Source: a virus
IMG/VR virus record: IMGVR_UViG_3300044635_000883
Location: 1 to 21,692 of that record
Reading direction: 5' to 3' (one strand)
Length of the DNA stretch: 21,692 nucleotides
The notes under the pieces were generated by a model that was not told the DNA's origin, did not search any database, and was given only the letters and a program-made list of their open reading frames with translations. Positions 2,945-14,073 of this stretch are shown here, one piece after another. Within the stretch, counting starts at the first letter, position 1, and the number at the start of each line of letters is the position of its first letter. The position numbers and the translations under genes were made by a program.

Positions 2945-3156
2945 TGTAGTAATAAATTATATAAATTCTTAAACATGTCAATTACACAAGTCTTGCAATA
3001 TAAATTTGGATACGGCAAATCTTTGAACAGCTCACGATGCAATGCTGCTAATTCTTTAAGCTGGTGAACACCTAAATTAGTCATGTAATTAGCCTGCTTG
3101 TAAGTGTCCCAAATGTTTTGATAATGTAATAATATAGCTTGTTGTCTTTCGTCCAT
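2902..3156 (-). CDS. Hypothetical protein with CxxC (84 aa)
   Basis: A short helical protein, MDERQQAILLHYQNIW at the start and LYCKTCVIDMFKNLY near residues 52-66. The single CxxC (C54-x-x-C57) sits between a helical N-terminal half rich in H, Q and L and a C-terminal helix; one CxxC alone could bind metal only with partners or in a dimer. It starts 1 nt after the stop of the preceding 44-aa gene and overlaps the following 57-aa gene by 43 nt. Proteins of this size with a CxxC are common just upstream of terminases in Bacteroidota phages, but I do not know a function. Confidence 0.75.
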   Translation of the reverse strand: MDERQQAILLHYQNIWDTYKQANYMTNLGVHQLKELAALHRELFKDLPYPNLYCKTCVIDMFKNLYNLLLQCQSQELTKPKEII

Positions 3157-3157
3157 G

Positions 3158-3292
3158 TTAGTTTAGATAAATAACTATTGCTTTAAAATCAATGCTCATG
3201 CCACTAGAATGGTTAATACCGTCCTTATAATACCAGCAGCGGATATCATGAAATATTTTAACCAAATAATATTCTTCTGTATCTTCATTCAC
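3158..3292 (-). CDS. Hypothetical protein (44 aa), GTG start
   Basis: A GTG codon at 3292 overlaps the TGA stop of the membrane-protein gene (GTGA), a classic coupling arrangement. The frame ends 1 nt before the ATG of the next gene, filling the gap exactly. The product begins MNEDTEEYYLVKIFHDIRCW and ends in IDFKAIVIYLN, suggesting a small beta-rich fold. An alternative ATG-started frame of 30 codons in this gap is less convincing because it does not abut its neighbours. Function unknown. Confidence 0.6.
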   Translation of the reverse strand: MNEDTEEYYLVKIFHDIRCWYYKDGINHSSGMSIDFKAIVIYLN

Positions 3293-4079: not shown

Positions 4080-4094
4080 ATTAATAATACTTTG

Positions 4095-4242
4095 TAGTCA
4101 GAACAGGATTTGAACCTATATTTGATTGTACACTCAAATCTTATAATAGCATCATTCAACAATGCTTTACCTTATGGTTAAGGTATTAGGAGTCAATCCC
4201 TAATTCTCTTATAAGTGCGTTTACCAATTTCGCCATCTGACT
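4095..4242 (-). tRNA. tRNA-Leu-like gene with a ~59-nt structured insertion in the anticodon loop
   Basis: Read on the minus strand, a 7-bp acceptor stem (AGTCAGA at 4242-4236 with TCTGACT at 4102-4096) is followed by T8-G9 and a D arm GCG...CGC whose loop has the conserved TTGGTAAA. There is an anticodon stem CTTAT (4215-4211)/ATAAG (4144-4140), a long type-II variable arm ATTTGA/TCAAAT (4139-4134, 4125-4120), a T arm ATAGG-TTCAAAT-CCTGT (4119-4103) and discriminator A (4095). The D arm, long variable arm and A73 point to leucine. CCA is not encoded. The anticodon loop should be 7 nt but is 66 nt, filled by three hairpins (stems 4204-4199/4190-4185, 4183-4179/4174-4170, 4166-4162/4152-4148). 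No anticodon can be assigned with confidence. It may be an interrupted tRNA, a decoy, or a degenerate gene. Confidence 0.65.
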
Positions 4243-4271: not shown

Positions 4272-5411
4272 TTAAAATAAAGATATTTGAAATTGTGAAA
4301 TATCTTTCCAAACATCAGCATTAAATGTGATGATATTTGTACAATCTTCAGATTTAACACCAATATATTTAAAAGAATAACTAACTCGATTTAAAGGAAT
4401 ACGACCATTACTTTCTTTAGTAAAATTTGCTTTTAAATTTGTAGCTGTTGGCATCCAATTTTTTTTATCTTTAGTTAATGTTATTCCAAGTGCTGGACTA
4501 ACTGTTCTAATATAAATTTGATTATCTAATTTAGAATAAAGCGCACCAAAATAATCAATTAAAATTTTACCTATTCCTAAACCTTGAAAATCAGGCAAAA
4601 TAACTATTCTTGAAATTCTCTTTGTTTTTTCATCTCCTACACCTGGAAAAGGTAAAATAGCTACAAAACCAACAGGCTTATCATTCCATAAAATAATATA
4701 ATTTTTTGCAGATTTATTTAAATTATCACTTAAATAGTGATGCTGTTTGAAAATTTTCCAAGTTTCATATCTACATCGAAATATCTCCAAGTTAATTTTT
4801 GGTCTTTCGCGCCGAAGATAATCGAGTCTTTCAACTCGCCTCTTGTTAGGACTATATATCCAATCTGGATTTAACCATTCCATAATATCAAAATGACAGC
4901 TTGCCAAAATAATTTTTTTATTTTCTCTTCTAATATATTTTTGTAAAGCATTACTCATTGCTTTTGCCACTTCTCTATCGACTACGCTTGTATATTCGTC
5001 AATTAAAATTACTTCGTTTTCTTTTGCAATAGAAACACAATAGGCCATGCTTGCTCTATACTGTTCTCCATTACTTAAAGTATTAAAAGATCTTAACCAA
5101 CAAGGTACAGAACTTAAACCCATTGATGTCAATAAAAAAGCTGCCTTTTCAGGTGTTAACCAATAAAAATTTGAAATTAAACTTTTATTATTATCAAAAA
5201 TTGGTTTTTTTATTTCTCCAAATGTTTTTAATAATGTGGATTTGCCAGTTCCAGAGCCTCCATAAATTACTCCGATGTTCCATTCAAAATTTAAATTAAT
5301 ATTATTTTCAATTGTAATAATACTTTCATTTGTATTTTGAATATCATATGTTTGATAAATATATTCTGTATATTCATCATTCAAAATTTTATGTTTTAAT
5401 TCTATTTTCAT
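4272..5411 (-). CDS. ABC-type ATPase fused to a GNAT-like acetyltransferase domain (COG2401-like)
   Basis: The N-terminal half is an ABC ATPase: Walker A GGSGTGKST (residues 51-59), signature LSNGEQ (112-117), Walker B VILIDEY (134-140), D-loop SVVDRE (142-147) and switch His173 in LASCHFD. It lacks membrane segments, so it is a soluble ABC protein. The C-terminal half (from ~205) is GNAT-like: HHYLS (224-228), a beta hairpin IILWNDKPVGFVAILPF and the acetyl-CoA loop RISRIVILPDFQGLGIG (265-281, Q276-x-x-G-x-G). This domain pair is known as COG2401; its GNAT part is reminiscent of the phage Mu Mom base-modification fold, so DNA or RNA modification is possible but unproven. ATG overlaps the upstream stop (ATGA). 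The gene is visibly more AT-rich in codon choice than terL or portal, suggesting recent acquisition. Confidence 0.85.
   Translation of the reverse strand: MKIELKHKILNDEYTEYIYQTYDIQNTNESIITIENNINLNFEWNIGVIYGGSGTGKSTLLKTFGEIKKPIFDNNKSLISNFYWLTPEKAAFLLTSMGLSSVPCWLRSFNTLSNGEQYRASMAYCVSIAKENEVILIDEYTSVVDREVAKAMSNALQKYIRRENKKIILASCHFDIMEWLNPDWIYSPNKRRVERLDYLRRERPKINLEIFRCRYETWKIFKQHHYLSDNLNKSAKNYIILWNDKPVGFVAILPFPGVGDEKTKRISRIVILPDFQGLGIGKILIDYFGALYSKLDNQIYIRTVSPALGITLTKDKKNWMPTATNLKANFTKESNGRIPLNRVSYSFKYIGVKSEDCTNIITFNADVWKDISQFQISLF
4279..4307 (-). terminator. AT-rich 10-bp hairpin at the 3' end of the ABC-GNAT gene
   Basis: AAAGATATTT at 4279-4288 is the exact reverse complement of AAATATCTTT at 4298-4307, with a 9-nt loop. 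On the transcript the hairpin sits over the last codons of the ABC-GNAT gene and is followed by ATTTTAAAATT and more A/T. It may be a weak terminator or an RNA-processing signal between this gene and the tRNA-like gene 37 nt further on. All pairs but one on each arm are A-T, so it is not strong. Confidence 0.3.
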
Positions 5412-13551: not shown

Positions 13552-14073
13552 TTATTTTTTTTTATGTTTTAAATTAGTAATATGATTCCAACTATATCCT
13601 CTTTTTATATCTGATATTGTTGAAATTGAAATTTTATATTGTTCAGATATTAATTTATATTTTCTTTTATCATTTAAAATATTTAAAACATCTGCTGTTT
13701 TAATTTTGCATTGTGAATTTTTTTCTCCTTTGGATGATTTTAAACCAGTTTTAATAGCATGTTTTTGATTTTCACTTGCTGTAACCCATTCTAAATTACT
13801 TAATTTATTATCAGTTTTAATTCCGTTAATATGATTAACTTGTTTCTTATTATATTCATTATTTAAAAAATTTTCAGCAACAAGCCTATGAATTAAAAAT
13901 CTTTTTATTTTTATTCCATTTCCTAAATCAATTGCTAAATATCCTCCACCTTGTAAAATAGGTTTTAAAATTTTATCTGAATTTCTATGTAATTTTTTTA
14001 AACTTTTTATATTACCTAAATCACTAATCATGTAGCGATTTTCATAATTTTTTATAAATTTCCAATTTTCCAT
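13552..14073 (-). CDS. HNH homing endonuclease (NUMOD4-HNH-HTH)
   Basis: Three modules are visible in 173 aa: NUMOD4 (residues 2-45: ENWKFIKNYENRYMISDLGN), the HNH_3 nuclease (57-100: FLIHRLVAENFL, then QVNHINGIKTDNKLSNLEW with H62, N80-H81 and N94) and a C-terminal helix-turn-helix (123-160: KIKTADVLNILN ... ISTISDIKRGYSW). Such free-standing enzymes nick or cut a specific site in related phages and spread by recombination. It lies 1 nt upstream of the 67-aa membrane gene and 35 nt after the endolysin, so it has inserted cleanly into the lysis cassette. The codons are extremely AT-rich relative to both neighbours, in line with recent arrival. Confidence 0.92.
   Translation of the reverse strand: MENWKFIKNYENRYMISDLGNIKSLKKLHRNSDKILKPILQGGGYLAIDLGNGIKIKRFLIHRLVAENFLNNEYNKKQVNHINGIKTDNKLSNLEWVTASENQKHAIKTGLKSSKGEKNSQCKIKTADVLNILNDKRKYKLISEQYKISISTISDIKRGYSWNHITNLKHKKK

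Follow-up and report, generated by a model that had tools for sequence, protein, structure and literature searches.

The minus strand of the window (the whole 21,692-nucleotide stretch of DNA analysed here, IMG/VR record IMGVR_UViG_3300044635_000883) encodes at positions 4095-4242 an RNA that has the shell of a tRNA-Leu and no anticodon arm. It carries the acceptor AGTCAGA/TCTGACT, A73 (4095) and C74 (4094) that mark a class of anticodon-less tRNA-like RNAs in uncultivated viruses, a class that is well supported by our scans. Computation over this class yields a conserved shell, an anticodon arm missing as a rule, an arrangement in arrays, a tRNA-like trailer and a near-absence of Ro60 genes. 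The reading that we favour, at a probability of roughly 45%, is that the RNA would be matured like a tRNA and work as a tRNA mimic or as a decoy for host factors that bind, and probably attack, tRNAs.

The original prediction, made from the letters alone, had placed a tRNA-Leu-like gene at this position; the position was correct, and the strand was found to be minus from both the match to the Rfam model RF00005 and the minimum free energy (MFE) fold. The match reaches 40.3 bits over model positions 1-71 (E 1.6e-5 in the 21.7-kb window) against a gathering score of 29, and Rfam, fold and sequence agree with the further claim that the shell is whole, comprising acceptor, D arm, 6-bp variable arm, T arm with TTCAAAT, and A73. 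The element has a folding energy of -37.4 kcal/mol (z -3.3), a value that 0 of 200 dinucleotide shuffles reach, and z is -3.7 for the 78-nt piece formed by the anticodon stem and insert (dinucleotide shuffles) and -3.0 for the middle. In the MFE fold a four-way junction is nested in a cloverleaf at the site of the anticodon loop; the acceptor stem has 7 bp, the D stem 3 bp, the variable arm 6 bp with an 8-nt loop, and the T arm 5 bp around TTCAAAT. As had been proposed, the anticodon stem extends to a perfect 7 bp (CTTATAA/TTATAAG) and the insert contains three hairpins, although these measure 7, 6 and 8 bp in the MFE fold rather than the 6, 5 and 5 bp first given. The nested junction, likewise anticipated, is a single-sequence prediction, and a competing 5-bp pairing is possible between GATTG in the loop of hairpin 1 and CAATC near the variable arm. 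Coordinates of all parts are listed in Table 1.

Table 1. Parts of the tRNA-like element in the window, with the basis of each assignment.
Feature	Position	Strand	Basis or remark
Whole tRNA-like RNA, 148 nt	4095..4242	-	nt 1 = 4242, A73 = 4095; RF00005 and MFE fold
Acceptor stem, 5' strand AGTCAGA	4236..4242	-	7/7 pairs
D arm GCG-AAATTGGTAAA-CGC, tRNA-Leu type, A14 A15	4217..4233	-	Sequence, Rfam match and fold
Anticodon-stem 5' strand, lengthened to 7 nt (CTTATAA)	4209..4215	-	MFE fold
Insert hairpin 1 (ATTAGGG...CTCCTAAT region), GATTG in loop	4185..4204	-	MFE, single-sequence prediction
Insert hairpin 2 (ACCTTA-ACCA-TAAGGT)	4169..4184	-	MFE, single-sequence prediction
Insert hairpin 3 (AGCATTGT-TGA-ATGATGCT)	4148..4166	-	MFE, single-sequence prediction
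Anticodon-stem 3' strand (TTATAAG)	4140..4146	-	MFE fold
Long variable arm ATTTGA-GTGTACAA-TCAAAT, last nt U48	4120..4139	-	MFE fold
T arm ATAGG-TTCAAAT-CCTGT	4103..4119	-	Rfam match and MFE fold
Acceptor stem, 3' strand TCTGACT	4096..4102	-	Rfam match and MFE fold
Trailer CAA (C74 A A)	4092..4094	-	Like ordinary tRNA genes of related phage loci

Standard annotation does not recover this gene as a decoding tRNA. ARAGORN without introns found zero tRNAs across the whole window, and with the intron options that the original prediction had recommended it returned only a tRNA-Ser(GCT) with a 57-nt intron, a call that is unconvincing because it clashes with the Leu-type D arm. A search of Rfam with the element at E 10 placed RF00005 alone above its cut-off, the remainder being sub-threshold noise. 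A tmRNA was rejected, since Rfam gave no match to tmRNA up to E 10 and ARAGORN, run without introns, reported none.

To decide between an interrupted tRNA and a tRNA without a decoding arm, we defined the canonical anticodon arm as 5 bp closing a 7-nt loop with U33 and a purine at 37. Such an arm is present in 13 of 257 class middles, against 11.7 after shuffling, which is the level of chance. The positive control, ordinary tRNAs in the same loci, had it in 456 of 545 cases (9.9 when shuffled). Because the arm occurs at chance in the class and in most ordinary tRNAs beside it, the class consists of anticodon-less tRNA mimics rather than intron-containing tRNAs. The window element agrees with the claim that its anticodon loop had been exchanged: the loop is 66 nt, and no canonical arm appears with or without excision.

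It is thus very unlikely that the insert is an unusual intron whose removal would give a working tRNA-Leu. We reject this reading for the window element because no excision leaves U33, as the original prediction had already noticed for the simple removal of 59 nt, and because recoverable Leu anticodon arms among the Leu shells stand at chance (10 versus 9.2 in shuffles). A model of one-cut excision, allowing for class II and class I variable regions, gave no enrichment over shuffles in these shells, the exceptions in the Leu-type set being some Nostocales copies, L321 and L127, the last of which regains a Leu anticodon loop with CAA on excision. A group I intron had been dismissed at the outset on grounds of size, and rightly so, since it needs about 200 nt or more and a P3-P9 core where the insert has 66 nt and only RF00005 reaches its cut-off. 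What speaks for splicing comes from certain class I phage tRNAs, in which a perfect anticodon arm reappears once 42-57 nt are cut out between nt 28 and 29; 37% of the 35 class I shells score at least 17, compared to 0.1% of shuffles. Introns may therefore be real elsewhere. In a separate observation, the bacterial Leu-type shell of L321 (1190-1334, a Candidatus Parabeggiatoa MAG) bears a 63-nt insert ending in GGTTAT directly before a Leu(UAA) anticodon loop (CTTAAAA), with 4/5 stem positions paired.

The class I elements were obtained from a control scan with a class I D arm, which returned tRNA shells with 55-84 nt middles that split into two sets. The first set numbers about a dozen, lies in contigs that include 350-kb phages, and is the one in which excision of 42-57 nt restores perfect arms; no Ro60 gene was found in its contigs, and it may represent true short introns. 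The motif [AG]C[AU]GCAA occurs in 12 of the 35 class I shells versus 0.5 expected. Ten phage tRNAs with Lys, Ile, Pro, Phe or Asn anticodons (L393, L404, L408, L409, L420, L423, L425, L449, L460 and L462) carry an insert of 42-57 nt between nt 28 and 29, in most cases a hairpin followed by [AG]C[AU]GCAA, and regain a perfect anticodon arm without it; they may represent a short tRNA intron that has not been described, or else an RNA derived from tRNA.

The second class I set, with GGTTAC/GGTTAT, comes from contigs that carry a TROVE (Ro60) gene, and in four Nostocales genomes arrays of shells adjoin a Ro60 gene; both are bacterial Y RNAs. The Nostocales loci (L329, L343, L344 and L358) contain shells of several isotypes that all hold one common insert, CUUGCC..GGCCGA..GGGUUAUCG, beside the Ro60 gene, and they seemingly were reported earlier as short group I introns (PMC5733544). 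Seven phage contigs (L394, L413, L417, L429, L440, L441 and L467) combine a tRNA-shell RNA with a TROVE/Ro60 gene and are candidate phage-encoded Ro60-Y RNA pairs.

Could the window element itself be a Y RNA, i.e. a YrlA-type, tRNA-mimicking partner of the Ro60 protein? Y RNAs do exist in the wider set, given that TROVE is present in seven class I shell contigs and that the enlarged Nostocales shells adjoin Ro60. On the other hand, TROVE was found in only 2 of 49 Leu-shell contigs, several of which are fragments, and at E 10 there was none in the window contig, also a fragment. The Ro-site pattern TTG-CC...GCCGA, which stands for a Ro-binding stem motif of the UUGxCC / GGxCCGA type, occurs in 5 of 134 Leu-shell middles, with the window element not among them. 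Because Ro60 accompanies just these two contigs and is missing from that of the window, the AGTCAGG-shell RNAs are not ordinary Y RNAs, an argument that is weak for the window contig alone and stronger for the class. We consider a Y RNA quite improbable for the window element, and rejected it as an account of all shells, TROVE being confined to a subset.

The class to which we assign the element has a shell composed of the acceptor AGTCAGG/CCTGACT, D arm, T arm, C74 and in most cases A73, and was found in uncultivated-virus contigs. A first IMG/VR scan, for a Leu-type D arm followed by a T arm at 70-100 nt (normally about 36), gave at least 120 stretches, and most of the matches listed have a perfect 7-bp acceptor although the acceptor was not queried; a second scan at 101-131 nt contained many real members amid tandem-tRNA artefacts among the matches listed. 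As lower bounds from an arbitrary sample, which holds for all class counts from the viral scans, there are at least 270 distinct AGTCAG-type elements in at least 201 IMG/VR loci, with total lengths of 71-181 nt (10th-90th percentile 85-139 nt). At least 66 of these loci hold arrays of two to six elements whose middles are usually unrelated; all 66 arrays keep their elements in one orientation, and the median spacing is about 320 nt. The window, a 21.7-kb fragment, has one AGTCAG-type copy. The AGTCAGG/CCTGACT acceptor is found in 58 of 139 enlarged Leu-type elements compared to 4 of 96 normal-length Leu tRNAs, and by eye these four have no anticodon arm either.

Conservation of the shell is partly by construction, the shell being partly the selection criterion, but several positions that were not selected for are also kept: U48 in 135 and A73 in 112 of 139 Leu-shell elements, C74 in 114 and a U preceding nt 1 in 103 of 116 class elements. 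In ordinary tRNAs of the same loci C74 is present in 306 of 316 and CAA follows nt 73 in 152 of 316, and this sharing of C74 and the CAA trailer with ordinary tRNA genes suggests that both undergo the same maturation. What the class conserves is thus the acceptor, the T-arm half and nucleotides 48, 73 and 74, and not the middle. Pair 7-66 of the window element is A-U where the class consensus has G-C, both sides having changed; apart from the window, IMG/VR has the pattern AGTCAGA...ACGC in just three stretches (L507-L509), and in these the 3' side is also TCTGACT, a side that the pattern left free. A decaying tRNA-Leu gene with random sequence in its loop would fit an insert without relatives, but is hardly credible for an element in which every arm is whole, the fold has a z of -3.3, the shell and C74 persist across hundreds of copies, and both sides of pair 7-66 have changed in the window and three further contigs; random decay had been doubted from the start for the intactness of the arms.

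No consensus shell was detected among isolated phages (50,697 phage records in INPHARED, where BLAST with both shell halves gave one-half matches only) or in 295 Bacteroidia genomes. We found no Rfam family for the AGTCAGG shell and no description of the class in the open-licence literature, subscription papers and preprints being outside this scope; the RNA family apparently has not been described before. Candidate isolated phages mostly proved to have ordinary tRNA-Leu genes. One exception is the Acinetobacter phage vB_AbaS_Silvergun (L385 2996-3121; OZ038342.1 ~13565-13690), whose unannotated tRNA-Leu-like shell with acceptor TAAGCGA and a 75-nt middle offers, coming from an isolated phage, a laboratory-tractable relative. 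Directly downstream (L385 ~3134-3200) lies a conserved unannotated stretch, CCCGCCAG...CTGGCGGG, common to Stenotrophomonas and Xanthomonas phages in which it precedes the tRNA clusters, and which is possibly another noncoding RNA.

Turning to the middles, the first collection of 117 elements formed 93 middle clusters, 82 of them singletons. Neither exact-pattern scans of the window insert nor BLAST against all class members gave a relative of it, and an exact-pattern scan for the window's own shell variant found no relative sharing its middle. With middles that nearly always differ in sequence and length among at least 270 related elements, the three-hairpin insertion can no longer be regarded as an essential conserved feature. 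A small mobile insertion, also suggested at first, fails as a general explanation, since no insert is common to the middles and what the elements show is the absence of an anticodon arm, not its interruption. The middles are nonetheless structured: 75 cluster representatives outfold their dinucleotide shuffles with a mean z of -0.83 (Wilcoxon p 3e-9), and the Leu-type set has a marked excess of helices with a 3' strand that stops 1-3 nt short of the T arm (p ~2e-14, mononucleotide shuffles). There is likewise an excess of H-type crossings between such a helix and one upstream, which reach p<=0.05 in 17% of 118 Leu-type elements. The motif GGTTAAT appears in 14 of 134 Leu-shell middles versus 1.3-1.5 expected. 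One family (L093, L098, L128, L172, L272 and L510-L546) has a nearly invariant, pseudoknot-capable middle of 74-79 nt, its seed pattern being present in 44 contigs; this middle sits in AGTCAGG and AGTGAGG shells, at least one further shell being clearly different (that of L510), and the shell also differs in L536. To judge from this family, some middles may do a specific job and not just fill space, and since the family keeps its middle across differing shells, some middles would therefore be functional RNAs themselves.

Such observations could point to a natural tRNA scaffold, in which the shell would serve processing and stability only and the variable middle would be the active payload (a protein-binding RNA, aptamer or regulatory RNA). 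Middles that outfold their shuffles, recurring H-type pseudoknots, the excess of GGTTAAT and a conserved middle in 44 contigs with at least one non-Leu shell all agree with this proposal. It is odd for a dedicated payload, however, that 82 of 93 middle clusters are singletons, and when the middles are compared with the DNA of their own phage, the length of the matches does not exceed chance, so that no antisense target was found there (an antisense guide was rejected on the same comparison, the longest matches to the own locus being 10.4 nt versus 10.2 nt in shuffles). We therefore regard a scaffold as possible but rather unlikely. No shared protein partner was found beside the elements: no recurrent neighbour family is present in more than 10 of 126 loci, or in more than 6 if only genes close to the element are counted.

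For the mimic or decoy that we favour, we infer that the RNA is expressed and processed, whether or not it is charged, and that it serves as a decoy at all. Judging from the shell and trailer, the RNA would be transcribed and trimmed as a tRNA, and U48, A15 and the D and T loops suggest that it would fold with a true tRNA elbow. Because the anticodon is missing it should not decode, a self-folded domain taking the place of the anticodon arm. Proteins that read the top half of tRNA (acceptor helix, T arm, elbow, 15-48, A73 and C74) could then bind the RNA, which might shield real tRNAs from a nuclease or occupy another tRNA-binding factor. Precedents for this last step are the suggestion made by the authors for YrlA (PMC7790460) and the acceptor- and T-arm-reading Cas12a3, which cuts CCA tails while touching the acceptor stem and T arm (PMC12851939). 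The likeliest use would be as a stable mimic that ties up host factors which bind tRNA, chiefly defence nucleases that attack tRNAs, and that could be neither used by the ribosome nor cleaved in an anticodon loop. Of the options offered by the original prediction, a decoy would be the best fit. Several points count against it: the middles are so variable that a defined ligand for them is hard to picture, no common neighbour gene names a partner, and a leucylated RNA would account just as well for the preservation of A15-U48 and A73.

The last of these raises the prospect of an adaptor charged by LeuRS that would deliver leucine, or titrate LeuRS or EF-Tu. Both marks of a LeuRS substrate, A73 and the Levitt pair A15-U48, are present in the window element, A15, U48 and A73 are kept in the class, and LeuRS needs no anticodon in many bacteria. 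Yet some array members (L272, L544 and L546) combine the same acceptor with a non-Leu D arm of the TAGCTCAG type, and 27 of 139 Leu-shell elements are without A73, so that we judge a leucylated adaptor unlikely.

Returning to the decoy, the unrelated middles within one phage might be an arms-race repertoire, or address different partners. We tentatively suggest that arrays of anticodon-less mimics, with constant shell and hypervariable middle, could be a diversified repertoire against host immunity that targets tRNAs, and a new kind of counter-defence RNA, a reading that we hold to be less likely than not. Phages counter tRNA destruction with spare tRNAs, and if the suggestion is true, non-decoding tRNA lookalikes would be a second phage answer to tRNA nucleases beside these. 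The destruction of tRNA is a recognised antiviral strategy, as exemplified by PrrC, PARIS, VapC and Cas12a3 (PMC12851939). In annotation, tRNA gene finders miss such genes or call odd tRNAs, and a family in hundreds of contigs has been overlooked.

The element comes from an uncultivated virus, and its 21.7-kb contig record also encodes terminase, portal and tail proteins. The primase of this contig has a BT4734-like N-terminal domain, and because partial relatives of this primase include Flavobacterium phages, a Bacteroidota host is likely. Adjoining the element, at 4272-5411 of the window, is a gene for a 379-aa fusion of an ABC-type ATPase and a GNAT acetyltransferase (phrog_11143), for which 174 encoding stretches were found in IMG/VR. 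The idea of homologous elements at the same site beside relatives of this gene was dropped, as they are absent in L001-L012; only in L019 and L020 does an element lie near such a relative, and there on the other side of the gene.

Among known RNAs, a canonical phage tRNA-Leu has all four of the element's remaining arms (acceptor, D, long variable and T) as well as A73, C74 and, in related phages, the CAA trailer; the element differs from it in having no anticodon arm with U33 and a length of 148 nt. The tRNA-like domain of tmRNA also combines a tRNA top half with the lack of an anticodon arm, but the element is far shorter, has a normal D stem and contains no recognised tag reading frame. YrlA-type RNAs reportedly occur in both bacteria and phages. 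Like the class described here, they are noncoding, join a tRNA-like domain (D and T arms) to a non-decoding part, and in Nostocales lie several to a locus; the bacterial Y RNAs (YrlA) are a known class of tRNA mimics in the work of Chen et al. (2014, RNA 20:1715), as cited in PMC7790460. Unlike them, the class nearly lacks the Ro60 partner (2 of 49 contigs) and the Ro-site pattern is absent from the window element, and whereas Nostocales copies share a Ro-binding insert, the class has a constant acceptor and unrelated middles within one array. A 2017 paper described cyanobacterial tRNAs with 22-49 nt anticodon-loop inserts as short 'group I introns' (PMC5733544), at least part of which look like Ro60-linked Y RNAs (CTTGxCT...AAGxC...GAA, as in L329/L343/L344/L358). 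These inserts resemble the window element in having a tRNA shell with an anticodon-loop insert, and have no motif in common with it. Finally, the class recalls an invention of the laboratory. In engineered tRNA scaffolds the anticodon arm is exchanged for another folded RNA, and the products are stable and matured like tRNA. The class differs in being natural, multi-copy and hypervariable, and if its middles are payloads, it would be the natural counterpart of this tRNA-scaffold trick of RNA engineering.
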